From positions 62,001-126,000 of the forward strand of contig CALXWJ010000001.1 of the NCBI GenBank assembly GCA_944392335.1: 64,000 nucleotides of DNA. The letters run 5' to 3'. A program made the translations under genes and the position numbers. A model generated the notes under the pieces. It was not told where the DNA came from. It was given only the letters and a program-made list of their open reading frames with translations, and searched no databases. Below, piece by piece: positions 16,498 to 39,011 of this stretch (positions are counted from its first letter, which is position 1; each line of letters opens with the position of its first letter). The stretch is from an uncultured Clostridia bacterium. GTDB lineage: Bacteria; Bacillota; Clostridia; UBA1381.

Positions 16498-16553
16498 TTT
16501 ACTATGTGAAATTAACCATTTAATCTTTAAAAATAATCAAAGTGAGTGATTTT

Positions 16554-17396
16554 ATGCAACCGTTCAGGGAATGTATTTTAATGCCGTCGCTGCCGTTAAA
16601 AATTTTCATATCTTCCGCAAACCGTCAGTGCGGAATCACCTCGCATCCGCATTGGCACGATGAAACGGAACTTTTATATGTTCTTAAAGGAAGCGCATTC
16701 CAGCAGAACAATGACTGCTTTTTTTCAATAAAGGAAGAAGACTTTGTATTAATCGGCGAAAATTGTGTGCACTCCACCTATTCCGATAAAGGCAAGCCTT
16801 GCGAAATCCTGGTCCTACAGATCGCTTTGGACAGATTTTTTTTCGGTAGGGATTGGGATTTTCATCAAAAAATCGCAAATGCATGCTTTGTCAGCAGTAT
16901 AAGATACCCAAAGGGAGGCGCCCTAATGAAGGATATCCTGTTAACAAGCAACGGCAATGGACTGTATAAGGATGTTTTTTTACGCGGGAAAATATATGAA
17001 CTCCTAGGGATATTACTGGAGGATTTCGATACCTTTCCTCTGTCGGCAAATCCACACGTGACACAAACACAGAAAGAATTTATAAAAAAAATAATGCAAT
17101 ATATTGAAGCTAATTATAAAAATCCCATCACGGTAAAGGACGCCGCACAGCATACGCATCTGAGTGTTTCGCATTTCGTGCGTGAATTTAAAAATGTAAT
17201 GGGGATGTCTTTTAAATATTATGTGAATTTTTTTCGGATAAATAAAAGCGGGGCTTTGCTTTTAAAAGGTAACAGTGTGACATATACCGCTCTTGAATGC
17301 GGATTTAACAATGTAGATTCCTTTATCCGTAATTTTAAAAAATATAATGGCTGTACACCCTCAATGTACTTATGTAAAGAAAAAAACGATATATAA
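16554..17396 (+). CDS. AraC family transcriptional regulator (with cupin sensor)
   Basis: 280 residues from ATG 16554, which has a GTGAG-type site 7 bases upstream; a GTG four codons earlier is possible. The N-terminal cupin-type sensor shows HPHWHDETELLYVLKGSA and a paired beta-barrel (to ~150). The C-terminal AraC double helix-turn-helix starts near MQYIEANYKNPITVKDAA, with SVSHFVREFK and CGFNNVDSFIRNFKKYNG in the second helix pair. Such proteins usually activate neighbouring sugar genes on binding a breakdown product. Divergent transcription points to the URO-D-like gene as a target; control of the wider locus is possible. The stop codon lies inside the left end of a hairpin repeat. Confidence 0.92.
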   Translation: MQPFRECILMPSLPLKIFISSANRQCGITSHPHWHDETELLYVLKGSAFQQNNDCFFSIKEEDFVLIGENCVHSTYSDKGKPCEILVLQIALDRFFFGRDWDFHQKIANACFVSSIRYPKGGALMKDILLTSNGNGLYKDVFLRGKIYELLGILLEDFDTFPLSANPHVTQTQKEFIKKIMQYIEANYKNPITVKDAAQHTHLSVSHFVREFKNVMGMSFKYYVNFFRINKSGALLLKGNSVTYTALECGFNNVDSFIRNFKKYNGCTPSMYLCKEKNDI

Positions 17397-17520
17397 CTGC
17401 GAACATGTTGTCCCCCGCCGCCGGCGGGGGATGCATATTTGTAATCAGTATGAGTATAATTTCCGGCTGATAACAGCGCAGCTATGCTGTGCTTTTGTCC
17501 TAATTGAATGACAGGACAAG
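17393..17520 (+). repeat. Structured intergenic repeat (family 1, copy A)
   Basis: This ~128-base element starts at the AraC stop codon. Stems: CCCCCGCC/GGCGGGGG (17412-17430, loop GCC), a weak TGTAATC/GATAACA pairing, AGCGCAGC/GCTGTGCT (17475-17493), and TTGTCCT/AGGACAA (17495-17519). A second full copy at 38700 keeps the same order with compensatory changes. It may serve as a 3' terminator or be a small non-autonomous mobile element. Confidence 0.75.
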
Positions 17521-17548
17521 CTCTTTTGAAACCCACGCCAAAATGCTG

Positions 17549-17623
17549 AGGAGCTAACGCTCCTATTGACGGTTGCAACGTTTGCAAGCTCCATTTTAAA
17601 CAAGTTTGATGGAGCGTTGTTCC
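17549..17623 (-). repeat. Palindromic repeat (family 2), minus orientation
   Basis: A hairpin GGAGC-TAAC-GCTCC (17550-17564) is followed by a nested palindrome at 17575-17619, with inner arms GCTCCAT (17588-17594) and ATGGAGC (17609-17615) and outer arms GCAACG/CGTTGT. The reverse complement matches 41043-41094 over about 52 bases with few differences. It fills the gap between two convergent AraC genes. Confidence 0.65.
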
Positions 17624-17671
17624 AATTTTAAAATAGCAACATAAAAATATATAGAAAAATATGTGTGTTTC

Positions 17672-18532
17672 CTATTTTTTATGAGTATTTCTGAATTCGG
17701 AAGGAGTATAATGAGTATAATTTTTGAAAGTTTTGTTAAAATTTTTTAAATCATTATAGCCTGTAATTACGGCGATTTCTTTTATTTTAAAATCGGTATT
17801 AGTTAAAAATCTGCACGCATGCTGAATTCTTATTGTATGCAGATGTTCGGTGAAGGTCATACCGGTTTCCTTTTTTATCAGTTTACTTGCATAAGGAACA
17901 GAGTAGTGCATTTTATTGCATAAATCACTTAGGGAGATCTCTTGAGAAAAGTGATTATTTATATAAGTAAGAATATTTGTGGTGATCTGATTATAGTTCA
18001 TATAAGTATTATCGCCAAATTCCCTTAAAATGAAAATTGTAAGAAGAATGAGATATCCCCTGACCATTTCAAAATAAGCATCTTTTTTTTCAATTATTTC
18101 ACTAAAGATATTTTCCACTAAAGACAATATTTTTTTGTTGTCGTCATGAAAAATGCTGTCTGAAAATTTTGTTTCTGATAACGGTAATTTATATTTAATA
18201 AGGTAATTAGAAATAACATCGGAATAGTTTTTACAATAATAAAGGGATTGGTCTATAAATTCCGGAAGAAAGCATATATTCAAAATTTCTAAGCTTTCAT
18301 TTTCGATAATGTTATATGTATGCATATCATTAAAATCTGTGATAAAAAAATCACCGGCTTTAATTTCTTTTTCTATATCGTTTATGACATATATTCCTCT
18401 GCCTGATAACACATAAACATATTCAATAAATTCATGATCATGATAAATTACATCCTGATTGCTTGTGATATATTGCTTTGAAGCCTCAACCGGAGTTGAA
18501 CGCCTTAAAGTCCCCGTTTTTTTGTTAAGCAT
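17672..18532 (-). CDS. AraC family transcriptional regulator
   Basis: 286 residues. The N-terminal cupin sensor has VIYHDHEFIEYVYVLSGRGIYVI and KAGDFFITDFNDMHTY. The C-terminal double helix-turn-helix spans about 185-284: INNHFSQEISLSDLCNKMHYSVPYASKLIKKETG is too long to quote in full, but its SLSDLC and YASKLIKKE core and the ending ITGYNDLKNFNKTFKNYT are typical. The start has TAGGTG about 9 bases upstream. It is transcribed away from the GH106-like gene, with 176 bases between starts, and is the best candidate to control that gene and possibly cassette B behind it. Confidence 0.92.
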   Translation of the reverse strand: MLNKKTGTLRRSTPVEASKQYITSNQDVIYHDHEFIEYVYVLSGRGIYVINDIEKEIKAGDFFITDFNDMHTYNIIENESLEILNICFLPEFIDQSLYYCKNYSDVISNYLIKYKLPLSETKFSDSIFHDDNKKILSLVENIFSEIIEKKDAYFEMVRGYLILLTIFILREFGDNTYMNYNQITTNILTYINNHFSQEISLSDLCNKMHYSVPYASKLIKKETGMTFTEHLHTIRIQHACRFLTNTDFKIKEIAVITGYNDLKNFNKTFKNYTHYTPSEFRNTHKK

Positions 18533-18639
18533 ATTAAAACACCTACTTTATATGGTAATATGGTTATTCTATCATTTATATTTTCATATGTCAAGGCAGC
18601 TTGGTTAAATATGACCTATAAATTAGATATTTTTTACCC

Positions 18640-18668
18640 TTGAAAGACTCAAATGAGAATGATATAAT
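18640..18668 (+). promoter_or_regulatory. Sigma-A promoter of the GH106-like gene
   Basis: TTGAAA (18640-18645) and TATAAT (18663-18668) are separated by exactly 17 bases. The predicted start of transcription lies near 18675, leaving a ~34-base leader. This argues against translation beginning at the TTG at 18640, which is the -35 box itself. Confidence 0.7.
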
Positions 18669-18708
18669 AAAAAAAATTATTTTATTAGAGAATAGGATTG
18701 TATATGAT

Positions 18709-21700
18709 ATGAGTAAAGTGTTAGATGAGGATTTGTTTAAAAATCCTACAAAGGAGTACAGAGGCATCACATTCTGGGCATGGAACAACGATTTGCCTCA
18801 AGAAACTCTTCTTCATCAGATAGATTGCTTCGACAAAATGGGCATGGGCGGATTTTATATGCATTCAAGAATAGGCATGAATGTGGAATATATGAGTGAT
18901 GAATTTTTAGAAAAAATCAAAATATGTGTGGATGAAGCAAAAAAACGGGGTATGTATGCCTGTCTTTACGATGAAGACGGATTCCCATCGGGATATGCAG
19001 GAGGATATGTTTCAAAAAGGCCCGAATATGCAGAAAAAATGTTAAAATTCTTCTGCCCGAAAAACATGGATGAGGTAGACGGAACAGCCGGTATTTTCGG
19101 AATTTACGATGTTGAGTTTGATGAAATAGGATATATTAAATCATATAGAAAAATAGACACAGATGAAAAAGCAAACCATCTAAAATGGTACGCTGTTATA
19201 AAAAACGGAAATAAAACGCCGCAGTTTAACATGAATCCTTATGGGGACTTGCTGAATTCTGAAGCGGTGGATTGTTTTATAAAGGAAACGCATGAAAAAT
19301 ATTATAAGAAAGTCGGAGCGCTTTTTGGAAGCACAATTAAGAATATATTTACCGATGAACCAAGATGGCATAAAATAAGCGAAGTAAAACAGCCCGAATG
19401 GGAAAATTTCGGCATACTTCCTTGGACAGAAAAATTTTTGGAAATTTTCTTTGAAAAATATAAATTGGACATAGCGGACTATATACCTGAACTGTTTTTT
19501 GATTTCAAAAATAAATATTCAGAAGTAAGATATAAATATTTTTCGGCAATCAGCGAGCTTTTTGAAGAAAGCTTCATTAAAAAATACAGTAATTGGTGCA
19601 GGGGACATAATATTGAATTTACCGGTCATCTTGATTGTGAAGAGACCTTAAGCTCGCAGATGTCAGTTTGCGGCGAACATATGCCCAAATATATGCATTT
19701 TGATATTCCGGGAGTGGATGTTCTAATGGATGAAAGAAGATATACCACAGTAAAGCAGGCGCAATCAATTGCACGTCAGACCGGCAAAAAACACGTACTT
19801 TCCGAACTTTACGGTGTAACAGGATGGGACTTTGATTTTTCAGAGCATAAATTAAGCTGTGATTGGCAGGTGGCGTTGGGGGTTACAATGAGAGTTCCGC
19901 ATCTTTCATGGGTATCTATGAAGAAAAATGGGAAAAGGGATTTCCCGGCATCCATTGGAATGCAATCACCGTGGTATGAAAAATATAATTACATAACAGA
20001 CCATTTTTCAAGATTAAGTACGGTCTTAACAAGAGGTAAACCTATTGTCAGGATTGGTGTAATTCATCCTGTTGAAAGTATGTGGATGATTTACGGTTCA
20101 AGAAAAACTCAATGGCCGCTGATTGAAGCCTTTGATAATGAATTTAAAAGACTGGCAGAAGCTTTTTTATTAAATCAAATGGATTACGACTATATTTCTG
20201 AAAAAACAATTCCTGATCTGGCAGAGGGGAGAAAAATAGGAGAAATCAAGTACGATGTGATTCTTGTGCCGCAATGTATAACTTTAAGAAGGACTACGGT
20301 TGATTTTTTGATGAAATTTAAGGAACTTGGAGGAAATGTTATATTTGCGGGAGATATGCCGCAATATTCAGACGGAAAGAAAGGCGAATACGCTAAAGAA
20401 CTTTTTGAAAGCTCCGAAAGGGTTATAAATAATGAAGGTGCGATTCTCTCAAAACTCGAAGAGTATAGACTGATTGAGATTATTAATCAATATGGTGACA
20501 GAGATTTAAGATATATATATCAATTAAGGGAAGATGGATCCTGCAGATGGCTTTTTTTGGCAAAGGGTATAAAGGAGCCGCATAAAGGGAGTGTTGAAAA
20601 ATCGGAGCTTAATCTCAGAATAAAAGGAAACTTCATACCTGTTCTTTATGACACTTTAACAGGAGAAAAAAGTGAGTTGTCCTTCAGAACAGAAAATGGA
20701 TTTACAGAGGTGTTTCTTACAGCATATAACCATGACAGTTTTTTAATCAGACTTGAAGCGGGTGAAGATTGTTGTCTAAAAAAGACGGAAGATATAAAAA
20801 ATGAAGAAATCAGGCTTGAGAATCCCGGTAGATTTTCACTTTCCGAGCCTAATGCTGCGGTGTTGGATTATGCAAAATGGTCGGTTAACGGCGGGGATTT
20901 TCAAGATTTTGAAAATATAAGAAGAATAGAATACAAGGTGTTTGAGAAATTAAATGTCCCGATGGCAATAAGATGTAAAATGCAGCCATGGGCAAAACCT
21001 GACTATGAAAAGGATGCTTATGTGAGATTGAAATATGTCTTTGAAAGCGATATTGAATATGAAGGTGCTGAAATTGCAATGGAAGACGCCGAAGAAACAA
21101 AACTCTTGTTTAACGGAGAAGAGGTATCTTCACCAATATGCGGATATTTTGTTGATATGGATATAAAAAAACGAAAATTAACAAAAATTCAAAAAGGCAT
21201 AAATAATTTGGAAATAGGATTTAAACTCAATAAAAATTCGTCTTTTGAATCGATTTACCTTTTGGGCGATTTCGGAGTTAAGACAGAAGGTAAAAATATA
21301 AGAATAATCGAGATGACGCAAAACCTTTGTTGGGGCGATGTGACAGGGCAGGGGTTACCGTTCTATTCTGCTAATATTGAATATGAAACAGAGCATAGTT
21401 TTACAAAAGAGTGTGCGGCAGAATTACAGCTTACCTCCTTTGAAGGGGCTTGCGCAGAGGTTTTTATAGATAATAAATCCTGTGGGCTTGTGGCTTTGGC
21501 GCCATATAGGGTAAGCCTTGGAAATATATCGGAGGGCAAGCATAAAATTAAGATATGTCTTTTCGGAAACCGTGAGAATACCTTCGGTAATCTTCATAAT
21601 ACCGGAAAGATAGAATATGGCCAATACAAATGGGAAGAAATGGGAGATACGCTGTCTTATGCCTATAATCTAAAAAGGTTCGGGATGTTTTCGGAGCCTA

Positions 21701-21720
21701 TATTAAAATTAAAGTTTTAA
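18709..21720 (+). CDS. GH106-like alpha-L-rhamnosidase, cytoplasmic
   Basis: 1003 residues from ATG 18709, chosen because it follows the promoter and an AGGA site; the in-frame TTG at 18640 lies in the -35 box. No signal peptide. The N-terminal barrel has the GH106 pattern ITFWAWNNDLP, QIDCFDKMGMGGFYMHSR and LYDEDGFPSGYAGGY. Glutamates in FTDEPRW (Glu217) and SELYGVTGWDF (Glu366) fit the two acidic residues expected in this inverting family; that assignment is by position only. A beta-sandwich C-terminus (~700-1003) completes the usual ~1000-residue length. The likely reaction is removal of alpha-L-rhamnose from imported pectic or glycoside oligomers. Cassette B begins 74 bases later and may be co-transcribed. 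Confidence 0.82.
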   Translation: MSKVLDEDLFKNPTKEYRGITFWAWNNDLPQETLLHQIDCFDKMGMGGFYMHSRIGMNVEYMSDEFLEKIKICVDEAKKRGMYACLYDEDGFPSGYAGGYVSKRPEYAEKMLKFFCPKNMDEVDGTAGIFGIYDVEFDEIGYIKSYRKIDTDEKANHLKWYAVIKNGNKTPQFNMNPYGDLLNSEAVDCFIKETHEKYYKKVGALFGSTIKNIFTDEPRWHKISEVKQPEWENFGILPWTEKFLEIFFEKYKLDIADYIPELFFDFKNKYSEVRYKYFSAISELFEESFIKKYSNWCRGHNIEFTGHLDCEETLSSQMSVCGEHMPKYMHFDIPGVDVLMDERRYTTVKQAQSIARQTGKKHVLSELYGVTGWDFDFSEHKLSCDWQVALGVTMRVPHLSWVSMKKNGKRDFPASIGMQSPWYEKYNYITDHFSRLSTVLTRGKPIVRIGVIHPVESMWMIYGSRKTQWPLIEAFDNEFKRLAEAFLLNQMDYDYISEKTIPDLAEGRKIGEIKYDVILVPQCITLRRTTVDFLMKFKELGGNVIFAGDMPQYSDGKKGEYAKELFESSERVINNEGAILSKLEEYRLIEIINQYGDRDLRYIYQLREDGSCRWLFLAKGIKEPHKGSVEKSELNLRIKGNFIPVLYDTLTGEKSELSFRTENGFTEVFLTAYNHDSFLIRLEAGEDCCLKKTEDIKNEEIRLENPGRFSLSEPNAAVLDYAKWSVNGGDFQDFENIRRIEYKVFEKLNVPMAIRCKMQPWAKPDYEKDAYVRLKYVFESDIEYEGAEIAMEDAEETKLLFNGEEVSSPICGYFVDMDIKKRKLTKIQKGINNLEIGFKLNKNSSFESIYLLGDFGVKTEGKNIRIIEMTQNLCWGDVTGQGLPFYSANIEYETEHSFTKECAAELQLTSFEGACAEVFIDNKSCGLVALAPYRVSLGNISEGKHKIKICLFGNRENTFGNLHNTGKIEYGQYKWEEMGDTLSYAYNLKRFGMFSEPILKLKF

Positions 21721-21723
21721 AAT

Positions 21724-21737
21724 ATATCGATTGGTAT
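21724..21737. promoter_or_regulatory. Second candidate operator (ATATC-GATT-GGTAT)
   Basis: It matches 12 of 14 bases of the palindrome at 16484, including an identical CGATTGGTAT core, and lies 57 bases before the start of the cassette B LamG gene. It could be a shared regulator site; in AT-rich DNA chance cannot be excluded. Confidence 0.3.
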
Positions 21738-21794
21738 ATTTAACAGAAAAATAAAATGCAGAGAAATCTGCTAAAAAATCAGGAGGAGATCTTA

Positions 21795-24700
21795 ATGAAG
21801 AAAACAAATTTGAAAAAAGTGCTTTCTGTACTGACTGCAGTTTCGGTTGCGTCGGGATTATCTGTATTTAATGTATTGGCAGAAAGTTCATTGACAGCAG
21901 ATGTTTATGCAGACTTAACCGGAGTTGTTCTGGACTTTTCGGCAGATGTGAGTTCTGCTGAACTGACAGGCATCAAGCTGTATAAAGAAGGCGTCGAGGT
22001 TAAAGGATTTATACCCGAAATCGAAACAGACGGTGATGTTTTGATATCAACACAGATAACAAAAGATACAGTATACACTGTAAATATTCCTGCAGGATTT
22101 ACTGAAAATTCACAAGCAATTGAAAAAAAGTTTGTTGTAAAAGAGGTATTTTCAGAAAACTTTGATGAAACTGAAAACGGAAAACTCCCTGAAACAATAG
22201 TTGCATCAGCAGATGACGAATGCAGTGTACAGGAAAAAGAAATGCAGCATATTGACGGTGTATTTTACCTTGATTATACCGGTACGAATTATACTGTAAC
22301 TTATGATATAAAGGTATATCAGACCAGTACCGGAACAACATCAGCTGCCGAAAACAAATATGCCGGAGCAACAGCGCCTCAGTATATGAGACTAATTTAT
22401 AATGCTCCGGACAAAACCAAGTATTTAACTTCTCAACCGTGTTATACGATGTCACTCAAAAACCATGAGGCTTCAAGAGCTGATTGGATGAGAATTTCAA
22501 GAGGTGGAACATCATGGGATTCTGCAAACAGCAATTATGTATTCTCTGACGAAAATTATGGATATGATGCGCAGGCGTATATTGATTATAATTATCCGCC
22601 GGCATACGGTGTAACGTCCAATGCGGCAATCCCACTTGATATAATAACTGCAGAAGAGGACGCTGAAGCACCTCAGGCTGAGGTTATTAAAATAACTTCA
22701 AGAAAGATTGCAAATGATATAGACCTTTATATTGATGGCCGTCATGCAGTCAATTACATAGGAGCTGAAAGAACTGCCGATGGTAAAATCCTAACAGAAG
22801 GTTATTTCGGTGTTCAGGAGGGCTATGGTAAAAAGGCTGCAACTGTTTATGACAACATAAGCATAACTACCTGTATAGAACCTAAGGAAGCAAACGTAAC
22901 AGATATCTATGCAGATGCTGACGGAATATATCTTACATTTGACAATGAGGTTTCAGGTATTGCAGACTTTGACGGTATAAGTCTTGCGGATGGATCGGGT
23001 GAGGTTGCATTTGCCCCAAGTGTAAATAAAAATGTTCTCACAATTGCGGCAGAACTTGAAACAGATACACTGTATTCAATAAGCCTGAATGATAAATTCG
23101 GTGATGGGATTGTAAACCTTAAGGAAGAATATATAAAGCAATTCAGGGTTAAGGAAATCGCAGTTGCAGACGAAGATTTTTTGGGCGCAACAGTTGCCGA
23201 TAACACAGTTACAATTGCGAATAACGGCGAAATGACGCTTTTGAAGGGCAATGAAATGGAAAAATATAGCTTAAGCTTTACACTAAACGTTAAGGACGGC
23301 GGGGATCCGTATCTTAGAATGTGGTATAATGCCGCAACTACCGGAAATTTTCACAGCACTTCAAATAAAGCTTATGTTATACGTTTCTGGAAAAACAGAA
23401 CAACTCTGAGACCTTGTGCAAATCAGATGTTTGTCGATGATAACGATATATCGATATCGCATACAGAAACATATTCAGACGGAAGTACAATCAAGCTTAA
23501 AAAGAACGGAAGAAATTCAGATGTATATCTGAATGGTACACAGATTGCGGCATATACGCCTAATGAAACATATACAATCGGCGGGGCAGATTATACTTTC
23601 GGAACGACCGGATATTTCGGGATATGGAACTGTTCGGTCGAAGCAAATGGATACTCCGGTTCGTGGCCTGTTACATTATCTGATTTTACTATGACATATT
23701 TTTCGGAATATGACCCAAAGCCTATGACAGTTGAAGGCTATTATGCTGATAAAGAGGGTATTTTGATAGATTTCAGCGGCGATATTTCAGATATTGATGA
23801 GAATGCTGTAAATAGCGCGTCAGTCAGCTCGAACGGTGATAAGGTGACTGTTGAAGGCTATATGGTACAAAGTGATAAGCTGGTGCTTAATACTGCACAA
23901 GAGCTTGAATTAAATACTATTTATGATATTGAACTTCCGGCAGGGTTTGGCACAGATAATTTAATACTCGAGGATAAATATCTTGCGCAGTTTAAGTTAA
24001 AGGAAGAGTTTGTTGAGGATTTTGCAGATATCGCATACAGCGGAGGAATACAGCTTTCAAGTGAAAAAGATAAGATATATAACGGAGAGCTTTATTTATA
24101 TGACAGTACAGTTTATGTAAAGGATACAAATAACTATAAAGAATATACTTTAAGCTTTGATTTAAAATCATATCAGGTTGTAACAGGGACAAATGATGAC
24201 GGTTCTGTACAATATGCAGCTAATGCACCGTATGCTTTCAGACCTTTCTTTACAAAGGAAGACGCGTTCTTTACTTCGTGTGAGGGATATGTGTGGCAAA
24301 TCGAAAACAGACCTACAGAAGGAAGGGTAATAATTAACAGAGGCGGTTCAAATCAGAGCGAGGACGGAACATGGAGCGGTTACAGCTCCGGAAAATACAA
24401 TGTAAACGGTGTTGCTGACAGCTATGCTGTTGTTTTACCTGAAGGAAAGCTTTCTACATCCCATGCAGATATTACGGTTCCTTATACAGTATCTGCTGAA
24501 ACAACGGGAACAACAGAGATAACCGTAAGGAAGGTTGAAAATCTTGCAAATCTCTATCTTGACGGTGGGTATGCTTCAAGTCTTAGTTTGAGTGATTGGG
24601 AAAACAGTTACTTTGGTATTCAGGACGGAGCGAATCAGGCGGCATATGTAATTGATAATATAAGCCTTACGATCTGTGAACCTGTAGCATCAACTGTAAG

Positions 24701-25019
24701 GAGCTTAAAGGTTACAGTCAAGGATTCAGAAGGTAAAGATATAGAACAATTAAGCGGTATCACCTCGGCTCAAGGAGAGGTTCTGGTTAAAAACTATACA
24801 GATAATGATATGCCGGCGGTATGTGTAATTGCAGCATATGATGAAAATAATAGGTTGTTGGCAGCTAAAATCCTTAAAATGGATACTATTGAAGCAAAAA
24901 CACAGGAATCATTTACATACGAGTTTAATAATATTAGCGGAGTCACAGAAATTTCGGCATTTTGTTGGGACAACTTTGATACAATAGTTCCATATTGTAA
25001 CGCGATTACAGTTAGATAA
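21795..25019 (+). CDS. Secreted LamG/Ig-like repeat protein (cassette B)
   Basis: 1074 residues from ATG 21795 behind AGGAGGAG; an upstream ATG at 21756 lacks a site and would put 13 residues before the signal peptide. Signal peptide 1-28. The body is three repeats of an Ig-like unit (each opening with a pattern like VYADLTGVVLDFSADVS, IYADADGIYLTFDNEVS, YYADKEGILIDFSGDIS) followed by a LamG-like beta-sandwich. The last ~110 residues are the recurrent C-terminal module, ending FCWDNFDTIVPYCNAITVR. No anchor or catalytic motif is seen. It resembles the LamG proteins of cassette A in layout. It is the first gene of cassette B. Glycan binding or a structural role at the surface is inferred. Confidence 0.85.
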   Translation: MKKTNLKKVLSVLTAVSVASGLSVFNVLAESSLTADVYADLTGVVLDFSADVSSAELTGIKLYKEGVEVKGFIPEIETDGDVLISTQITKDTVYTVNIPAGFTENSQAIEKKFVVKEVFSENFDETENGKLPETIVASADDECSVQEKEMQHIDGVFYLDYTGTNYTVTYDIKVYQTSTGTTSAAENKYAGATAPQYMRLIYNAPDKTKYLTSQPCYTMSLKNHEASRADWMRISRGGTSWDSANSNYVFSDENYGYDAQAYIDYNYPPAYGVTSNAAIPLDIITAEEDAEAPQAEVIKITSRKIANDIDLYIDGRHAVNYIGAERTADGKILTEGYFGVQEGYGKKAATVYDNISITTCIEPKEANVTDIYADADGIYLTFDNEVSGIADFDGISLADGSGEVAFAPSVNKNVLTIAAELETDTLYSISLNDKFGDGIVNLKEEYIKQFRVKEIAVADEDFLGATVADNTVTIANNGEMTLLKGNEMEKYSLSFTLNVKDGGDPYLRMWYNAATTGNFHSTSNKAYVIRFWKNRTTLRPCANQMFVDDNDISISHTETYSDGSTIKLKKNGRNSDVYLNGTQIAAYTPNETYTIGGADYTFGTTGYFGIWNCSVEANGYSGSWPVTLSDFTMTYFSEYDPKPMTVEGYYADKEGILIDFSGDISDIDENAVNSASVSSNGDKVTVEGYMVQSDKLVLNTAQELELNTIYDIELPAGFGTDNLILEDKYLAQFKLKEEFVEDFADIAYSGGIQLSSEKDKIYNGELYLYDSTVYVKDTNNYKEYTLSFDLKSYQVVTGTNDDGSVQYAANAPYAFRPFFTKEDAFFTSCEGYVWQIENRPTEGRVIINRGGSNQSEDGTWSGYSSGKYNVNGVADSYAVVLPEGKLSTSHADITVPYTVSAETTGTTEITVRKVENLANLYLDGGYASSLSLSDWENSYFGIQDGANQAAYVIDNISLTICEPVASTVRSLKVTVKDSEGKDIEQLSGITSAQGEVLVKNYTDNDMPAVCVIAAYDENNRLLAAKILKMDTIEAKTQESFTYEFNNISGVTEISAFCWDNFDTIVPYCNAITVR

Positions 25020-25031
25020 TAAATGTTAAAG

Positions 25032-25062
25032 TGCTCTGCAAAAATAAAATTTTTGCAGAGCA
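25032..25062 (+). terminator. Perfect 13-bp hairpin without a T tract
   Basis: TGCTCTGCAAAAA and TTTTTGCAGAGCA flank a TAAAA loop, 13 bases past the LamG stop and 45 before the S start. Lack of a T run after the stem argues against a simple terminator; partial read-through, mRNA end protection or processing are alternatives. Confidence 0.6.
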
Positions 25063-25106
25063 TACTGTGGAATTTTGTATTGCGCGAAAAAGAATGGAGG
25101 ACTACA

Positions 25107-29374: not shown

Positions 29375-29405
29375 AGGATTTTATGTAAATTGAGAAAGGA
29401 AGAAA

Positions 29406-32400
29406 ATGTGTATGAAGAGAATAATTACATTTATATCAGTGCTTGTAATGCTGTTTTCAATAAATTATTTCCCTGAATATGCTTTTGCCCAAAATAAAAT
29501 GAATGACCTGACCGACAATTATAATGATTGGCAGATTATAAGAGGAAATGGTTTTAAAAAGGTAAACGGAGCCTTGGTATATAATAGCGAAGAACCAAAA
29601 AATTACGATGATATTATTCTGTATTCAAAAAATGAATTTTCCTCTGGAGAATATATTGCCGATATTATCGTTAAAAAAGGCAATTATATCTCTATGCTTA
29701 TAAAAGCCGATGAAGATAAAACAAACTATTTATTAAAGCTTGATTATAAGAACGGGAAAATGTCTGTATTAAAAAAGATTGACGGGGGAAAAGAAAAGTT
29801 ACTGGCGTCTGCGGAGTGTAAACTTGAATATGACCGTCAATACCGTATTCACATAACTGTAAATGGAAGTGATATAACGGTAAGTCTTGATGGAGAAATT
29901 GTTGCTTCCGTAAATGATAATGAAATATCATCGGGAAGAATAGGATTTGCTCTAAAAGATGCAGTTGTATCAATACCGGCTGTATATTGCTATAAAGATG
30001 AAAATGTTGTATATGAAAATGCTATTGTTGAGGATATATATAAGAACAACAAGGAAGCAGTGAAGATATATGTTGCTCCAAACGGAAAAGATACAAATGA
30101 CGGAAGTGAACAAGCGCCGCTTGCGACAATGCAAAAAGCTAAAGAACTTGCAAGAGTACTTTCAAAAAACAAGACGCCTGTTGATGTGATTTTTAAAGAG
30201 GGTGAATATGTTCTTTCTTCAGGCGTTGAATTTTCAAAAGAAGATTCCGGAAAAAAGGGGGCATGGATTACATATAAAGCGGAGGAAGGTGAAAAGGTAA
30301 CATTTACCGGAACAAAGAAGCTGGATGTTTCAAAATTTGAACCTGTTACCGATGAAAAGCTTCTTTCTAAAATTTGTGATGAGGCTAAGGGGAAGGTTAT
30401 GCAGCTTGATTTGGCTGCACAGGGAGTACCAAAAGAACTACTTCATTGGACAAAGCGTGCAGATGAATATGATGTAAAACAGCCTATCGGAGTTCTTGTA
30501 AAGCCGCAGATTTTCTTAAATGACAGACTGCAGCACATTTCAAGATGGCCCAACAGCGGACAGGTAAAGACTTACGGTGTTGTGGATAAAGGAGCAACGT
30601 TTTCATACAATGATCCGCAGAATGTAAAAAACGGCGGAACAATAAATTATAAAGAGTCCCGTCCTGAACGATGGATTGAAGCGGAGGATGCTTTTTTACA
30701 CGGACATTTTAAAAATCCGTGGTATTATGAAGAAGCGAAAATAAGAAGTATTGATACATATAATATGACAATTACAATGGACCATTGGGTGTCATATAAT
30801 TTTACAACCGATTATCCGCTTTGCGGCTGGCAGGTAATAAATCTTATAGAGGAAATTGATATTCCGGGAGAGTGGTATATAGATAAAAACACATCAATGC
30901 TTTATTATTATCCGCCTCATGAGCTTACAGAGGAAGATGTTTTTGAAATCGGTATTTTGTCGGACGATATGATAACTTTGAATGAAACAAAATATGTTAA
31001 GTTCGAAGGCTTGGAATTTGCAAAAAATTCCGGGATTTATGGAGGAAGAGCATATACACGTTTGGACTATTACGGTGAAAATGGAATTATGCTTAAAAAT
31101 GTGGAAAATATTTGTATAAAAGATTGTACCTTCAGGGATTTAGTAAGTTGTTGTATACATGTTGAAGGAAAAAATGTATTAATTGATTCTTGTGTTATGT
31201 ATAACTATGGAAGAGATGCAGTAAAAGTATTTGATTCGGGAAATTATGAAACTATAGAGTCAGGAAATACAATAATAAGAAATTGCCATATCTCGGGTGA
31301 ATCGATGCGATATACGGGAGATAATGGCTCGGGAGGAATAAATATCAGCGGTGACGGTGATATTGTGGGAGTTGTTGTTGAAAACAATATTATTCACAAT
31401 ATGCCGATGCCTGCGATATATTACGGGGGAATGGCACATACTCTGCAATATAACGAGCTTTATAATGTTCAAAACAACGCCTCTGACGGCGGAGCGATAT
31501 ATTGTGGCAGAAGCTGGGGACAGATGGGAACGGTTTCTCAGTATAATTATATTCATGATGTTGGTATACAGGAGGAGATCCATATCGCGACAGGTATATA
31601 CTGGGATGACCAGCATTCCGGTAATATTGCAAGATATAATATAATAAAGCCGGATAATATGTATGATGGGCACGGGTTCTGGTTAAACGGCGGAAGTCAT
31701 AATCAAGTTTATGCCAATACAATTATTAATGCTAAATATGGCATTCGTGCGCACAGCACAAGTATGACGGGTGACGGAACAGTTATGGATCAACTTCTTT
31801 CTAAACCGTTTACATCCAAGGTTTATGTGCAGAAATATCCGGCAATGCTTGAACTTTATACCGAAAAGATGCAAAACGGTTCGGTTAAGATAAAAAATGA
31901 TTTCAGCGGAAACTTTATTGTTAATGCCCCTAACTGGTACCATGAAGAACGCTATAAAAACGATGAAACCATAAACGGAAATGTAATATTGGAGGAGTAT
32001 GATGAAAGTATTTTTGTTGACCCCGAAAACCAGGATTATAGGGTGAAAAAAACCGCAAAAGAAAAATACGGACTTGACGCAGGTATTCTTGACGAGGATT
32101 TTGATATCAGTCTGATCGGAATTCAGACAGACTACAGGATCGATGAAGAAAAGATGGAATTTAATCTTTTATCGCCTGAAAACGGCGGCAAAAACATTTC
32201 TCCGGAAGGAGCTGAAATTGCCTGGGAACAGTCGTTATTTGCCGACAGGTATGAATATAGGGTGGCAGAAGATCGGGAAATGACTAAAATAGTTGCAGAA
32301 GGTTCAACAAAGTATTATTCAGTTACATTGCCGGAGCTTGAAAGCAATAAGACCTATTACTGGACAGTTACCTCTGTTAATGATTCAAGGACCCTTGGCT

Positions 32401-33281
32401 GTAAGCATGAAACTGAAAGCGGAGTATTTTCATTTACAACAGGAGACGTATCAAAGCTTGACAATGCAATGCTTAAGCTTAAGATAAGACAGGCAAAGGA
32501 AACCTTATCAACAATTGTTGAAGGAGAGATTCCGGGAACATATAAGTATGGTACTGCTGAAGAATTTGAGAGGGTTATTGAAGAAGCAGAAAAAACGGCA
32601 GAAATAGAATACGGAAAAACTGAAATTGTTGATAATGCAATTGATAGTATAGATACCGCAAATTCTATGCTTGCGACAAAGCTGAATGTCGGATTCACTG
32701 AACCAAAACTTACACCTGATACAGGATGGTATGCTACACAGGCAACTGCGGCAGTAACGGCTGATTCAGGTGAGATTTCAATAAGTGCACAGGGTGAGAA
32801 GATGAATGTTGTTTTAACAGAGAGGCTTGGAAGCCATAATGTTCAGTGTTTTGATTTTATGATTGAAAGAGAATCAGGTTCCGATTGGTACGGCATCGGT
32901 ATACGTCAGCAGGTTGAAAATCAGATACTCTGGACAGACAGCTATTATATTGTTGTTAAGCCGGATATTATAGAATTTCAGGGAAGCGGTAACATATTCG
33001 GAACAATCCCGAATGACGGAAAGATTGTTAATAACAAATGGTATTCCTTGAAGATGGCGGCGATAAATATAGCAGAAGGTGTATATTATGCAGTTTATAT
33101 TGATGATGAGCTTTTGTTTGAATATATTGATAAAGACGGTGCAGTGTATGAAGACGGTATGATCACAATGTATATACCTTCAGGTGCAACCATGAAGATA
33201 AGAAACAGCGAAAATGTAGAAACGGGACTTTTTAATCTGAGCGAAAGGATAGAAGCTTTGAACAATAAAAGAGAGGAGTAA
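29406..33281 (+). CDS. Secreted beta-helix protein, GH141-like, LamG at both ends
   Basis: 1291 residues; ATG 29406 has GAAAGGA 7 bases upstream. Signal peptide 1-29. An N-terminal LamG/concanavalin-like domain (~35-205) precedes the beta-helix, which opens with IYVAPNGKDTNDGSEQAPLA (~223) and carries ISRWPNSG, EIDIPGEWYIDKN (~482) and SDGGAIYCGRSWG (~692), then VDPENQDYRVKK. After it come Fn3-like (~918-1011), FIVAR-like helical (~1015-1095) and a second LamG-like domain (~1098-1275). The closest relative in the window is the protein at 5701. The fold and motifs fit GH141-type glycosidases; substrate is unknown. Secreted but without its own anchor. Confidence 0.82.
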   Translation: MCMKRIITFISVLVMLFSINYFPEYAFAQNKMNDLTDNYNDWQIIRGNGFKKVNGALVYNSEEPKNYDDIILYSKNEFSSGEYIADIIVKKGNYISMLIKADEDKTNYLLKLDYKNGKMSVLKKIDGGKEKLLASAECKLEYDRQYRIHITVNGSDITVSLDGEIVASVNDNEISSGRIGFALKDAVVSIPAVYCYKDENVVYENAIVEDIYKNNKEAVKIYVAPNGKDTNDGSEQAPLATMQKAKELARVLSKNKTPVDVIFKEGEYVLSSGVEFSKEDSGKKGAWITYKAEEGEKVTFTGTKKLDVSKFEPVTDEKLLSKICDEAKGKVMQLDLAAQGVPKELLHWTKRADEYDVKQPIGVLVKPQIFLNDRLQHISRWPNSGQVKTYGVVDKGATFSYNDPQNVKNGGTINYKESRPERWIEAEDAFLHGHFKNPWYYEEAKIRSIDTYNMTITMDHWVSYNFTTDYPLCGWQVINLIEEIDIPGEWYIDKNTSMLYYYPPHELTEEDVFEIGILSDDMITLNETKYVKFEGLEFAKNSGIYGGRAYTRLDYYGENGIMLKNVENICIKDCTFRDLVSCCIHVEGKNVLIDSCVMYNYGRDAVKVFDSGNYETIESGNTIIRNCHISGESMRYTGDNGSGGINISGDGDIVGVVVENNIIHNMPMPAIYYGGMAHTLQYNELYNVQNNASDGGAIYCGRSWGQMGTVSQYNYIHDVGIQEEIHIATGIYWDDQHSGNIARYNIIKPDNMYDGHGFWLNGGSHNQVYANTIINAKYGIRAHSTSMTGDGTVMDQLLSKPFTSKVYVQKYPAMLELYTEKMQNGSVKIKNDFSGNFIVNAPNWYHEERYKNDETINGNVILEEYDESIFVDPENQDYRVKKTAKEKYGLDAGILDEDFDISLIGIQTDYRIDEEKMEFNLLSPENGGKNISPEGAEIAWEQSLFADRYEYRVAEDREMTKIVAEGSTKYYSVTLPELESNKTYYWTVTSVNDSRTLGCKHETESGVFSFTTGDVSKLDNAMLKLKIRQAKETLSTIVEGEIPGTYKYGTAEEFERVIEEAEKTAEIEYGKTEIVDNAIDSIDTANSMLATKLNVGFTEPKLTPDTGWYATQATAAVTADSGEISISAQGEKMNVVLTERLGSHNVQCFDFMIERESGSDWYGIGIRQQVENQILWTDSYYIVVKPDIIEFQGSGNIFGTIPNDGKIVNNKWYSLKMAAINIAEGVYYAVYIDDELLFEYIDKDGAVYEDGMITMYIPSGATMKIRNSENVETGLFNLSERIEALNNKREE

Positions 33282-33304
33282 AATTTCTATCAGATTTAAG
33301 CTTT

Positions 33305-33325
33305 GTGTCTTTGGCACGGAAAGGA
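33305..33325 (+). promoter_or_regulatory. 5-bp hairpin joined to the ribosome binding site
   Basis: GTGTC-TTT-GGCAC can form a five-pair stem ending exactly where the GGAAAGGA site (33318-33325) begins. The same arrangement with paired substitutions occurs at 43841-43862. It may tune translation of the SGNH gene. Confidence 0.45.
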
Positions 33326-33331
33326 ATGGTT

Positions 33332-35290
33332 ATGAAAATGATGAAGAAAATACTGCCCATTTTAATGACAGTATCGATTGTGTTTTCCGCCCATACACTT
33401 GTATGGGCAGAAAACAGCATTACAGCAAAAAACATTCATGAGTTAACAGACAATATTTTTATTGAAGGAAAGCTTTCTGGAGAGGCAGAGGCAGACGTTG
33501 TTACAGTGCTTATGATGAAGGATAATGAGCTTAAATATATAAAGGAATTCCCTTTAAACGATGACGGGAGTTATCAGTGTAAATTTAAGTTTATACCGGA
33601 CGAAGGAACAACTATAGCGGATTACAGCTTAAAGGTCAATGCAGGTGGACTTGATGTTACCGATACCGTTGCGACTGTGACCGATGGGGAATTATATGAG
33701 TTTGATATTAAATATTCAAACGCGTTCGGTGACTCTGTTATAGATTTTACGGGTGATGTTAAGGCAACGGTTATGGTTAAAAATAAATATGCAGACAATG
33801 GGACTTTGCCGGTTTATTTCAGTTCATATAAAGATGATTCTTTAACAGAAGTTATAAGTGATAAAATAAATTTTAATTTTAATGTGAATCAGGCTGTAAC
33901 TGTTAATCAAAATTTAACATTGGATTTGACAAGATCAAAGCTTATGCTTTGGAACGGACTTTCGGGAATGTTACCTTTAGCAGAAGCAAAAGAGCTTAAA
34001 AAACAGACTTATGGCGCCGATAAGCTTGCGTTAACAAAAGATGAGCTTACAGCATCGGAAAATAAAATAACGATTGTAGGAATTGCTGCATCCGTAACCC
34101 AGGGGGCGCATGCAGGCAATGATGGGACAAACCATACCGATGCAAATATAAGCGATGAGGCTTTAGCAGAATATGGCTGGGTTGGAAGAACTGTAACAGG
34201 TTATTTTGAGGAAAAATACGGTGCACAAAATGTTGAATATTATTCTGCGGCAATTGGAGGCAGCAATACAAGAATGGCTCTTTACCGTTTACAAAAGGAT
34301 GTGCTGTCATACAGCCCGGATGTGGTATTGCTGGATGTTCCGGTAAATGATAGTTGGAGTGATCCATCATATAATCCGAAGTTGTATGCCGAAGCCATTA
34401 TAAGACAGCTTTTAAAGAATGAACATCAACCTGTTATTATATTAAACCAGTTTGCAGGCTTTAAAAATTCAGGGAAAATTGATGAGGAAGGTAATAATAT
34501 AAAAATTTTAGATGAAGACAGGAAGAATAATCCGGTAAAAGCCGCAGAGGAACTGGCATATAAATACAATCTTCCTTTTATGAATTTCTATAAGCTTATG
34601 GAAGATGTTATTGCCGGCAACGCAGATGAATATCTGACAGTTGACGGGACGGATTACAGCAGCCAAATTACAGATGCACACAGCTGTTGGGATATATTGA
34701 TGTTCGATTCGGTTCATCCTAACAGAATAGGGCATGGAGTTTATGCAAATTATGCGATTGCCCACCTTAAAAATGATGTAAATCTTTCAGGAGAAAAACA
34801 TACAAAAACATTTGAAAATCCTTTAACAGGTTATGAGTATAATAACCCGCATATGATAAGCTGGAAGGAAGCGACAGAATCAGGGATGGCTGAATGGTCA
34901 GACGGCTGGTACGAAGAGGAAGAGGTCTGGGGAGACGGATACAAATCGGCAAATTATACTGTATGTAATGGGAAAGTTTGGGAAGACGGTGCGTATAAAA
35001 CAATAAATGCCGGAAACAGCGTCACCTTTAAATTCAGCGGGACTTCGATAGGGATTTATGCAAGACGCGGAGCTGCATTTGATGCAGAATATAGTATTGA
35101 TAACGGCAAAATTACAGGTACATTTACTAATAAGGGGGACAGCGCATATTGTGTCCCGTGGGAACTTCACGGAATTGAGGACGGAGAACATACAATAACA
35201 ATTACAACTATAGGCACAGAAGAACTTGAGAATAATACTAATCCAAACAATCATTTTACAATAGCATATTTTTTGGTTGATTGTGAATGA
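33332..35290 (+). CDS. Secreted SGNH hydrolase (esterase-like), cassette B
   Basis: 653 residues from ATG 33332, 6 bases after GGAAAGGA; earlier in-frame starts fall in the leader hairpin or on the ribosome site. Signal peptide ~1-28. A beta-rich N-terminus (~30-225) ends in the recurrent module (LMLWNGLSGMLPLAEA). The SGNH domain (~240-490) has GIAASVTQG (Ser254), AIGGSNTR, LLDVPVNDSW and FDSVHPNRIGHG (Asp459, His462), so the catalytic set is complete although block I is unusual. A C-terminal beta-sandwich (~530-650) resembles that after the SGNH domain at 9515. De-esterification of a plant polysaccharide is the usual role; the actual ester is unknown. Confidence 0.87.
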   Translation: MKMMKKILPILMTVSIVFSAHTLVWAENSITAKNIHELTDNIFIEGKLSGEAEADVVTVLMMKDNELKYIKEFPLNDDGSYQCKFKFIPDEGTTIADYSLKVNAGGLDVTDTVATVTDGELYEFDIKYSNAFGDSVIDFTGDVKATVMVKNKYADNGTLPVYFSSYKDDSLTEVISDKINFNFNVNQAVTVNQNLTLDLTRSKLMLWNGLSGMLPLAEAKELKKQTYGADKLALTKDELTASENKITIVGIAASVTQGAHAGNDGTNHTDANISDEALAEYGWVGRTVTGYFEEKYGAQNVEYYSAAIGGSNTRMALYRLQKDVLSYSPDVVLLDVPVNDSWSDPSYNPKLYAEAIIRQLLKNEHQPVIILNQFAGFKNSGKIDEEGNNIKILDEDRKNNPVKAAEELAYKYNLPFMNFYKLMEDVIAGNADEYLTVDGTDYSSQITDAHSCWDILMFDSVHPNRIGHGVYANYAIAHLKNDVNLSGEKHTKTFENPLTGYEYNNPHMISWKEATESGMAEWSDGWYEEEEVWGDGYKSANYTVCNGKVWEDGAYKTINAGNSVTFKFSGTSIGIYARRGAAFDAEYSIDNGKITGTFTNKGDSAYCVPWELHGIEDGEHTITITTIGTEELENNTNPNNHFTIAYFLVDCE

Positions 35291-35314
35291 TAAAACAATA
35301 AAAGGAGAGCTGAT

Positions 35315-38300
35315 ATGATAAATAAAAAAGCTATAGCACTGCTTTTAAGCTTTGGTCTGATATTGGGGATAATACCCCAATATCAGGTATTGGCTTTTAA
35401 TGATACCGGATTGATATCGGTTACAGCTTCGGAAAACAAGATAACAGTATCGGGAAAAGCAGCAGCGGAAAATGAAAATATAAGCATTATTCTTACGGAA
35501 CAAACTACAACAAGAGATGATATTTCTGCGATTGAGACGGATGAGGATTTAGTTAACAGATTAAAAAACTTTTATATAACTGAAAGTGTAAATTATAATT
35601 TTGAAAAAACTCTCAGTACAGAGGAACTGAGTGATGATTTTAAAATAATTATTTCATCTGAAAATATGCTTCTTGAAGAAAATATATCAAAAAACAAAAT
35701 ATCAGAATGTCTTTTGGAAAATTATGAAATCGATGAACAGGGCGGAATAACTGTGTGGGGAAGCTCAGCGGAAAATGCACAAATTTATATATTGGACGAA
35801 AGCTTGTTTGAGGGGGATCCGGGGACTGCAACAAGTGATGAAAACATAGAAAAGTATATAATTAAGAATGTAGCCGCAGGAAGCGGGGAGTATAATGTCA
35901 CAATTGGTAATGTATTTTACAATGTAAATACAGTGGCTTTATGTGTAAAATCAGGTGATGAAAAAATTGTTTACAAGGTAGAGTCAAACTATATTCATGT
36001 AGGGAATAATATAGGTGAGACCGGTAATGGAACAATTGCAAGGCCTTTTTCATCAATTGAGACAGCAAAAGAATATTTAAGAGAGAATAAATCAAACAGG
36101 GAAATGTTTGTTATAATACACGGCGGTAGATATGAATTTGAAGAAACAGTAGTGTTTGATGAAAACGATGGCGCAACAGAAGATAGGCCTATAACCTATA
36201 AAGCGGCAGAAGGTGAAGATGTTATATTTACCGGTGCAAGGGTGATTGAAAATTCATTTTTTGAAATTCCGGGTGATGATGTTAAGGCAAGACTTAAAGG
36301 CGCAGCGGCAGACAATGCGGTAATGCTTGATTTGAGTAAAATAGGGGTAAATTTTGATTTTGTTTCTTTTATGAATGAAGGAAATAATCAGTTATTCAGG
36401 TATCTGAATATTTTTTTAAACGATAAAAGACAGGATATCGCCGGATGGCCAAACGGTGAGAAATTCAAAATAACAAGCGTTACTAAAGGGAGCGATGTAA
36501 CTACAGACAGATACCTTGAAATTGACGGGCTTGATACAAGCAAATGGCAATACAGTGATAATATTTTTATCTATGGTTGTATCGGAAACTGGTGGAATCA
36601 TGAATGGGATGAAATAGCAGCGTTTACCGAGAATATAAAGGAGTTGAAAATAAGCTCATATTCATCCGACCCGACAGCATATCTTGGTGAGGAATACAAT
36701 AATCCTCAGTTTACCGGCAGAGTACTCAATGTTTTAGAAGAAATGGATATACCTGGAGAATGGTATTTAGATGTAAGCGGATTAAAACTTTATTATTATC
36801 CGCCCCATAAGCTGACAGATGAAGATACATTCGAAATCGCAGTTTTTGACGATGATTTTATAAATATAAATGAATGTCAATATATAAATTTTAAAGGGAT
36901 TAATTTTGAAAAAAATGCTTCGAAATCTGGTACGATAAATACAAATAAGAACCATTCGGGACATGCTTTATCAATAGAAAATTCAGAAAATATAAATATA
37001 GAAAATTGTAAAATCAGACACATTGGAATGAGTGGCATAAACGCAGATGGCAGAAATATTTTAATTGACCGGTGTGTTATTTCGGATGTAGGACACTGCG
37101 GAATAAGTGTTGGTCTGAAAGGCTGCCGGGAAGAACTTACAGAAACGGGAATTGTGATAAGTAACAATATTATTTCCGATGTTGCAAGGGAAAGAGGCGG
37201 AAACGGTTCTGTCGGCATATATTTAAGAGATGACAATGTAGGAACTGTTGTTAAAAATAATATTGTACACAACACAAAAAATATTGCCGTACGCTATGGT
37301 GGACTTGGTAATAAAATACAATATAATGAGATATATAATGTTATAAATGACAGTTCGGATTCGGGGGCAATTTATGCAGGAAGAAGCTGGGCAGATTACG
37401 GTAATGTGATAGAATATAATTATATTCATGACTACGGTGTTAAGGATGAAAGTGAATCTCCGGCATGGCTTGCCTGCGGTATTTACTGGGATGATAAACA
37501 TATAGGAAATACTGCAAGATTTAATATAATTGTTCCGAATAATACTTATGACGGATATATTGCACATATAAATGGCGGTGCACAAAACACCTTCCAAGAG
37601 AATATTTTTGCAAATTCCAAGGTTGGGGTAAGATATGCATCAAGTGCAATTAATAATACCGATATAGGAACTTGTGAAGACAGGGTTCTTGAAATTCCAT
37701 ATAACTCGCAAATTTATCTTGAAAAATATCCTGAAATAAATAATACATATACAACATGGAAAAATGAAGGTGAATTCTATTCATATAATTATCTGAAAAA
37801 CAATTTTAATGTGGGAGCTGCAAATGAATTTGAAGGGCCGATTCAGATTAGTCTATGGAATGAAACAAATAATACAACGGATGTATCTATTGACTACAAT
37901 GACGAGGTTTTTGTTGATTCTTCAAACCATGATTATAGGGTGAAAGATGAAGCAAAGGCTCAATACTGTTTGATGGATGGAATACCTGGAGAAAACTTTG
38001 ACATGGATTCTATAGGGCTTCAAAGTGATTATTTGCTCTCAGATAAGGATAAGGCGTTTGAATTGTTATATCCGGAAAACAATGCAAATGGATTAACGGC
38101 AGAAAAAATTTCGATTGTCTGGGAAAAATCTGATTTTGCTGATGAATATAATTATTTTGTATACAGTGATAAAGAGGGTAAGAATATTGTCAGGAGCGGA
38201 AGTACACATCATACTAATGTAACTGTTGAAGGGTTGGAATATGGAAAGGACTATTATTGGCAGGTAGTTGCTAAAAATATGTCAAAAGAGATAAATTTCG

Positions 38301-38626
38301 AAGAAAAATCCGAAATATACAGATTTTCAACTAAGAATAATCCGAGAATATCAGAAGTTACCTTATTTGAACAGAATATTTCATTTGTTGCGGAAAATCT
38401 TAATGATTCAGAAGTTTCGTTTGTTGTTATCGGGGCTGTGAAGGATGGATCGGGAAAGCTTTTGGCTGTAAATACTGAAAGTTTTACCATCCCGGAAAAA
38501 GTAACCTTGGAAAAGTCAATTTTTTTAAATTATCCTTTTGTTTCTGATAAGCATAAGATTGAATTTTATGTATGGCAGGATTTGGTGAAAATGAATCCTA
38601 TAATATGTAAAACAACACTTAGATAA
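35315..38626 (+). CDS. Secreted beta-helix protein, GH141-like (cassette B, second)
   Basis: 1103 residues; AAAGGAGAG precedes ATG 35315. Signal peptide 1-29. An N-terminal region of ~200 residues (Ig-like, unrecognised) leads to the beta-helix (~225-890) with ARPFSSIETA, DIAGWPNGE, EMDIPGEWYLDVSG (~475) and SDSGAIYAGRSWA (~682), then VDSSNHDYRVKDEA. Fn3-like domain ~910-1010; C-terminal recurrent module ~1012-1103 (FYVWQDLVKMNPI). It thus joins the beta-helix and the module that other cassettes place in separate proteins. GH141-type glycosidase is the best guess. A strong hairpin lies within the signal-peptide codons (35357-35386). It is the last gene of cassette B. Confidence 0.82.
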   Translation: MINKKAIALLLSFGLILGIIPQYQVLAFNDTGLISVTASENKITVSGKAAAENENISIILTEQTTTRDDISAIETDEDLVNRLKNFYITESVNYNFEKTLSTEELSDDFKIIISSENMLLEENISKNKISECLLENYEIDEQGGITVWGSSAENAQIYILDESLFEGDPGTATSDENIEKYIIKNVAAGSGEYNVTIGNVFYNVNTVALCVKSGDEKIVYKVESNYIHVGNNIGETGNGTIARPFSSIETAKEYLRENKSNREMFVIIHGGRYEFEETVVFDENDGATEDRPITYKAAEGEDVIFTGARVIENSFFEIPGDDVKARLKGAAADNAVMLDLSKIGVNFDFVSFMNEGNNQLFRYLNIFLNDKRQDIAGWPNGEKFKITSVTKGSDVTTDRYLEIDGLDTSKWQYSDNIFIYGCIGNWWNHEWDEIAAFTENIKELKISSYSSDPTAYLGEEYNNPQFTGRVLNVLEEMDIPGEWYLDVSGLKLYYYPPHKLTDEDTFEIAVFDDDFININECQYINFKGINFEKNASKSGTINTNKNHSGHALSIENSENINIENCKIRHIGMSGINADGRNILIDRCVISDVGHCGISVGLKGCREELTETGIVISNNIISDVARERGGNGSVGIYLRDDNVGTVVKNNIVHNTKNIAVRYGGLGNKIQYNEIYNVINDSSDSGAIYAGRSWADYGNVIEYNYIHDYGVKDESESPAWLACGIYWDDKHIGNTARFNIIVPNNTYDGYIAHINGGAQNTFQENIFANSKVGVRYASSAINNTDIGTCEDRVLEIPYNSQIYLEKYPEINNTYTTWKNEGEFYSYNYLKNNFNVGAANEFEGPIQISLWNETNNTTDVSIDYNDEVFVDSSNHDYRVKDEAKAQYCLMDGIPGENFDMDSIGLQSDYLLSDKDKAFELLYPENNANGLTAEKISIVWEKSDFADEYNYFVYSDKEGKNIVRSGSTHHTNVTVEGLEYGKDYYWQVVAKNMSKEINFEEKSEIYRFSTKNNPRISEVTLFEQNISFVAENLNDSEVSFVVIGAVKDGSGKLLAVNTESFTIPEKVTLEKSIFLNYPFVSDKHKIEFYVWQDLVKMNPIICKTTLR
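35357..35386 (+). promoter_or_regulatory. 12-bp perfect hairpin inside a signal-peptide coding region
   Basis: CTGATATTGGGG (35357-35368) and CCCCAATATCAG (35375-35386) flank ATAATA. It begins 42 bases after the start codon of the beta-helix gene and encodes LILGIIPQYQ. Whether it slows ribosomes during export or is chance is unknown. Confidence 0.5.
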
Positions 38627-38699
38627 TGATATGAATTAAAGTCAAAATTACGTGTAAAGAAACCGATAATGTGTATTAATAAAAATATTTATAACCGAT

Positions 38700-38830
38700 A
38701 TAACTGAGGACAAGATGTTCCCCGCCTCTTCAAGAGGCGGGTTTTATATCTGTAATCGGTATGAGAATACAATCTCCTGTCGATTACAGCGCAGCTATAC
38801 TGCGCTCTTGCCCTCATTCAATAAGGGCAT
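38700..38830 (+). repeat. Structured intergenic repeat (family 1, copy B)
   Basis: About 131 bases, starting ATAACTGAGGACA. Stems: a 9-pair CCCGCCTCT/AGAGGCGGG (38721-38741) followed by TTTTAT, TGTAATC/GATTACA, AGCGCAG/CTGCGCT (38788-38806) and TTGCCCT/AGGGCA (38808-38829). Order and loops match copy A at 17393, with compensatory changes. Its first stem plus T run could act as the terminator of cassette B. Confidence 0.75.
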
Positions 38831-39011
38831 GCCATTATTGGATGAAAGATATCATATAGACCGCAAAACCCCTGTTCAGTATAAAACCGAACAACGGTTT
38901 CGCTGATTTTTGGTAATAGCTGCCCGCTTTTAATTGTCAATTGCATTTTATAGGCAGTTTTTACCGATATCATACGGTTATGGGATATCAGTGGGGACAA
39001 CTTTACTTAGG
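38831..39011. other. Intergenic region, no gene seen
   Basis: No convincing reading frame. AAACCG-AACAA-CGGTTT forms a small hairpin at about 38884-38901, and CTGCC with a distant GGCAG before TTTTTA near 38920-38960 could be a weak terminator for the convergent genes. Confidence 0.4.

Follow-up and report, generated by a model that had tools for sequence, protein, structure and literature searches.

A gene-less mobile repeat of Clostridia with a conserved fold that probably moves as single-stranded DNA

In this study we describe a dispersed repeat, about 120-175 nt long and without genes, from the genome of an uncultured Clostridia bacterium. At the level of sequence, comparison with sister species demonstrates that the family is a mobile element. 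We think it probable that the element is non-autonomous and moves as folded single-stranded DNA, in the 'peel and paste' manner of the IS200/IS605 elements. Membership of the IS200/IS605 family is not claimed, because a cognate Y1 transposase was sought and not found.

Two full-length copies lie in the window, that is, the whole 64,000-nt stretch of DNA analysed here. Copy A (17397-17530, plus strand; 134 bits with the covariance model R1) terminates in ..TTTTGAA and follows the target pentamer TATAA at 17392-17396 (plus strand), which is of the same type as seen in the empty sites of other copies. The TAA of this pentamer is the stop codon of an AraC-family gene (16542-17396). Copy B (38704-38842, plus strand; 126 bits with R1) terminates in ..TTATTGGA and follows TATAA at 38699-38703 (plus strand); with their pentamers, the full units span 17392-17530 and 38699-38842. 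The earlier note had placed both correctly, and both are full copies of one dispersed repeat. Compared with dinucleotide shuffles, the folding of copy A has a z of -4.9 and that of copy B a z of -6.9, and none of 200 shuffles matched either. Copy D (62532-62564) had been recognised as a pure palindrome of the left end, and we indeed found a perfect left-end palindrome there (z -8.7). Copy C (15277-15336) had been described as a copy with its centre deleted. Instead it reads, like copy D, as the left end joined to the inverted left end, in this case around a GC-rich hairpin, and is a palindromic derivative (z -7.4 for the hairpin with both ends); neither C nor D is assigned to a strand. A further fragment, which was overlooked earlier, consists of the right end only, namely the hairpin CTTGTCC..GGACAAG followed by CCTTTATTTGAA (approximately 61350-61394, plus strand), and lies directly 3' of the stop of the gene 56225-61342. 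This gene and the gene 46601-50893 have long repeats in common and look like paralogues. The region 13905-62399 of the window resembles a glycan-use locus, with a melibiase, GH106-like, GH141-like beta-helix and DUF2961 proteins and AraC regulators.

A BLAST search with copy A hit the source genome at 41 places, and a genome-wide covariance-model search, on which the earlier note had made its reading depend, gave at least 150 full-length copies. The model R1, built from 29 copies, matched all 150 places scored, the weakest with an E-value of 1e-16; the first look had yielded 1821 candidates, and the true copy number is probably above 150. Among related species, the number of copies per genome ranges unevenly from 0 to at least 150, and these genomes show species-specific bursts of the element. 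In a second genome (G009), near-identical copies with a median identity of 97% are found in differing flanks. The core pattern is present in many Clostridia records and absent from the viral contigs searched, and a second model, R2, has matches in 35 genomes, from about 25 families, in a sample of 291 taken throughout the class Clostridia. Where the complete genome of another family contains a single copy, its neighbours are ordinary, and beside such copies no recognisable transposase gene of an autonomous parent was found, as judged from translations. A literature search, with coverage outside subscription journals, found no published description of this repeat.

Evidence for mobility comes from empty sites in relatives, a check that had been named in the earlier note. 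A first direct comparison of flanks with the relative G002 was unclean, the intergenic DNA being about 20% diverged, and virtual empty sites were used instead, for which the left flank, the first five bases and the right flank were joined and searched in sister species. Three of them align through the junction to uninterrupted orthologous loci, gapless or with a one-base gap: C35:11368 was matched in G002, G003 and G001, and C12:83671 and C12:82248 in G002. In the empty sites, TATAA or GATAA stands directly before the right flank, with TGTAA in its place in two of the relatives. Since these sites carry the pentamer only once, the element is inserted precisely 3' of NATAA without target duplication, which is absent from the three empty sites as well as from the flanks of 61 copies. 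Both the left target and the right end finish with AA, so the breakpoint is certain only to within two bases, and a two-base AA identity at the two ends is indistinguishable from sequence that the ends share. Of the 61 own copies, 43 have TATAA as left pentamer and 48 terminate in TTGAA; the flanks are unconserved. Tandem copies at one locus (L122) join as ..TTGAA|CTAAATT.., which matches the expected end-to-end junction and hints at a single-stranded circular intermediate. Several copies are placed precisely at the TAA that terminates the preceding gene, some are found downstream of promoters or before ribosome binding sites, and many occupy untranslated regions, 5' or 3'.

On its own strand, the element begins behind NATAA with a C and the 5' strand of the helix P1, followed by GATGTC, the GC-rich hairpin P2, TTCCAT, the long hairpin P3, an optional P4, the 3' strand of P1, GTT.., a right hairpin and the terminal ..TTGAA. 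The right part varies by subfamily, with TTGAA or TTTAA as terminus, and GATGTC at the hairpin foot is almost invariant across genera. The two ends, TATAA|CTGCG.. and ..CTTATTGAA, are not inverted copies of each other. Palindromes are found near the termini, with the GC-rich hairpin close to the left end and a further hairpin close to the right end. In the source species, the CTTGTCC strand can pair with GGACAAG either on the left, as P1, or on the right, giving two competing folds. This differs from the alternative pairing proposed in the earlier note, of ATARCTGC with GCAGCTAT, which is open to some copies only. Short forms with internal deletions have the left GGACAAG fused to the right GGACAAGCCC; remnants of 27-30 nt (L100:11254, L101:2418, L108:16399), with left and right ends fused at the common GGACAAG, apparently arose by deletion between direct repeats. 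Conversely, 34 long copies of the source genome (e.g. L102:1993-2159 and L105:3120-3286) carry a GTAG-type REP hairpin inside P4, and these have been amplified as a composite, with a mean identity of 84% over ten examined.

As judged from the alignments, the fold is under selection, a conclusion that holds only with copies from other genera included. Selection for structure had been proposed from compensatory changes between copies A and B. Such changes are present, but within the source genome they are few, with changes on both sides in 5 of 27 consensus pairs and in one copy each, and covariation is accordingly thin there. Across genera the proposal stands. In 38 copies of many genera, P3 has both-side changes in 11 of 13 pairs (87 such cells), and its covariation score is 0.310, compared with 0.112 (sd 0.009) for shuffles, which remove relatedness incompletely, and 0.04-0.08 for slid pairings. 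Covariation thus appears in the larger alignment. For the end-to-end helix P1, 5' strands match the 3' strand of their own copy more closely than the 3' strands from other genomes (mean score 18.3 versus 14.3; 0 of 20000 permutations), with some segments imperfectly cut by the script and relatedness likewise only partly removed by the permutation. In the stems of the own copies, 98 G-T wobbles stand against 18 A-C mismatches, which indicates that the written strand is the folding strand. The corresponding numbers in the cross-genus alignment, 36 and 30, are uninformative because weak outer pairs are included.

The orientation of the copies in the source genome follows the replication fork. We inferred the replication direction from third-position GC skew, separately for plus- and minus-strand genes that were called by a simple longest-ORF script; in most stretches the two gene strands give the same sign of the skew, and the stretch L105 was omitted as ambiguous. 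With the fork were 59 of 62 ordinary copies (p = 2e-14), an orientation that places the top, folded strand in the lagging-strand template. Of 101 pairs of neighbouring copies on a contig, 78 are co-oriented, against a mean of 50 and a maximum of 67 in shuffles. Where a called gene lies on both sides, the fork is followed by 12 of 12 copies between convergent genes, 10 of 11 between divergent genes, 30 of 32 in tandem genes running with the fork and all 4 in tandem genes running against it; 26 of the 27 copies with convergent, divergent or head-on neighbour genes still follow it. For the long copies with the GTAG-type hairpin in P4 the bias is less clear (6:3). A single genome is too narrow a basis for a general fork rule. 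In G009, 22 of 32 copies are oriented with the fork (22:10, p = 0.05), and of the 19 copies in tandem genes, 16 point the same way as the genes. One reason for this weaker bias may be the target itself, with copies at TAA stop codons, and the direction of transcription may matter in this genome.

These orientations bear on another single-strand or RNA-linked route, e.g. one by which a structured transcript is reverse-transcribed or reverse-spliced into lagging-strand DNA, as for endonuclease-less group II introns, in which case the conserved fold would be an RNA fold. Some group II introns also prefer the lagging strand. The covarying fold spans the whole unit and not the ends alone, some copies lie directly behind promoters or before ribosome binding sites, and the copies of G009 track genes rather than the fork, all of which would suit such a route. 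The Y1 enzyme is, moreover, not consistently present in element-bearing genomes, 6 of 17 being without a Y1 match and the isolate MSJd-27 having fragments only (most are incomplete MAGs). Nevertheless, we regard an RNA-linked route as unlikely, since the convergent, divergent and head-on copies of the source genome follow the fork and not transcription, and since the unit is far smaller than a group II intron. In addition, no Rfam 15 family, including those of group II introns, matched the window or eight related loci at the gathering score, and two source-genome loci searched at a lax E-value gave nothing relevant.

The element could also be a cis-acting RNA, such as a leader, a terminator or a 3' stabiliser, which was amplified and kept for regulation, and an RNA element had been one of the two options in the earlier note. 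With the structured RNAs of Rfam it shares a covarying multi-helix fold and an RNA-like size, and it differs from them in being mobile and in matching none of their families. The conserved fold, the ability of one CTTGTCC strand to pair with either the left or the right end and the many copies in untranslated regions are in line with such a function, and a secondary role of this kind is possible. As an explanation of the family, however, we hold regulation to be quite improbable. The copy number varies from none to at least 150 in related species, the empty sites indicate that the flanking genes manage without the element, and the neighbour genes are unrelated. In the source genome, gene direction does not set the orientation, which tracks the fork, and convergent as well as divergent gaps are occupied. 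A terminator or leader reading was rejected, as the mixed gene contexts give it no support.

The source genome is 99.5% complete and contains two Y1 homologues, L031 and L032, and no TnpB. The protein L031 (also L299; G000:C66:51061-51831) was rejected as an active mobiliser, since in its translation the HUH motif reads KVH and the Tyr position is occupied by Phe. Together with its homologues L300-L309 and L317, it represents a single-copy Y1-derived protein, in which HUH is degraded and the Tyr is lost in most members read; several of these proteins end in SVWLL. The protein is found in most relatives of the same family, with and without elements. From the translations, it looks like a domesticated, catalytically dead transposase. 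L032 (G000:C49:34849-38160) is a RAYT with intact HUH and Tyr. It was rejected as mobiliser too, because its neighbours belong to a different, GTAG-tagged repeat family and no element lies near it or near L031. With GTAGGGGCGATTCACGAATCGCCC-like repeats at its flanks, this apparently intact RAYT resembles a canonical GTAG REP system in Clostridia. Among about 45 loci with Y1 genes, neither R1 nor R2 detected element ends close to the gene.

A MITE of the classical kind, moved by a DDE transposase, or a REP/REPIN that depends on a known RAYT would likewise be small, intergenic, high-copy and palindromic, and an intact RAYT is at hand, but both are very unlikely: the element lacks terminal inverted repeats as well as a target duplication, the absence of which already contradicts a DDE enzyme, and in its ordinary copies the foot of the hairpin carries neither GTAG nor GGAG as a tag. 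With REP/REPIN and RAYT (TnpAREP) it shares the absence of genes and a model of Y1-related spread; it differs in its asymmetric ends, its length of 120-175 nt and its defined empty sites, and the RAYT of the source genome is tied to another repeat. The stem of an integron attC site is closed by AAC..GTT and cut at G^TT, which does not fit the observed breakpoints behind ATAA and TTGAA, and this candidate was rejected.

If the element moves as folded single-stranded DNA, the reading that we prefer, one strand (ATAA^C...TTGAA) would fold into the conserved set of helices, and an enzyme of the HUH/Y1 type, supplied in trans, would recognise the subterminal hairpins. Cleavage by this enzyme would fall behind ATAA at the left end and behind TTGAA at the right end, and the excised strand would be pasted behind an ATAA exposed single-stranded at the fork. 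The fold of the whole element may be conserved because it is the substrate of the enzyme.

The IS200/IS605 elements use the lagging-strand template and possess subterminal hairpins (PMC6006769). Like IS608 and ISDra2, our element is inserted on the 3' side of a short fixed target that is not duplicated, has subterminal hairpins and is oriented to the lagging-strand template; unlike them, it contains neither tnpA nor tnpB, the source genome has no cognate TnpA, and its ends differ from those of the IS200 copies of relatives. The other option of the earlier note, a miniature element of the IS200/IS605 type, is therefore supported in part, by the empty sites, the lack of duplication, the 5-nt left target, the TTGAA end, the hairpins and the orientation, but related IS200/IS605 ends or a cognate Y1 were not found. 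In Haloquadratum, PATEs have no terminal repeats and no target duplications, possess near-terminal palindromes and are in some cases ends-only remnants of IS605-type transposons (PMC3119063). Our element fits the descriptive definition of a PATE, being without terminal inverted repeats or target duplication, with near-terminal palindromes, too short for a transposase and present in many copies. It differs in that no IS605-type parent with related ends was found and in that conservation and covariation of its inner part extend over about 25 families. The PATEs set a precedent for movement when no transposase is intact: strain-specific insertions are found in Haloquadratum, where almost every IS200-type transposase gene is disrupted (PMC3119063).

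A wider claim, which we put forward tentatively as a possibility, would be that of a class-wide gene-less family, the conserved unit of which is the whole fold including the end-joining helix and which is spread by an unrecognised non-Y1 enzyme handling folded single-stranded nucleic acid. Most of the known gene-less single-strand elements are relatives or remnants of a single parent IS within one species. Here, the fold is kept over about 25 Clostridia families, with at least 150 copies in one genome and with a defined target, defined ends and empty sites, and hence the missing enzyme can be sought directly. Insertion behind ATAA in promoters or at TAA stops adds a stable folded segment to the untranslated regions of many gut-bacterial genes. 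In the complete genome of another family, a single copy (L378, G220:C1:1884500-1895500) lies among apparent conjugative-element genes, as identified by our own reading of the translations rather than by a domain search, and such a setting may be a vehicle for the horizontal spread of the family.
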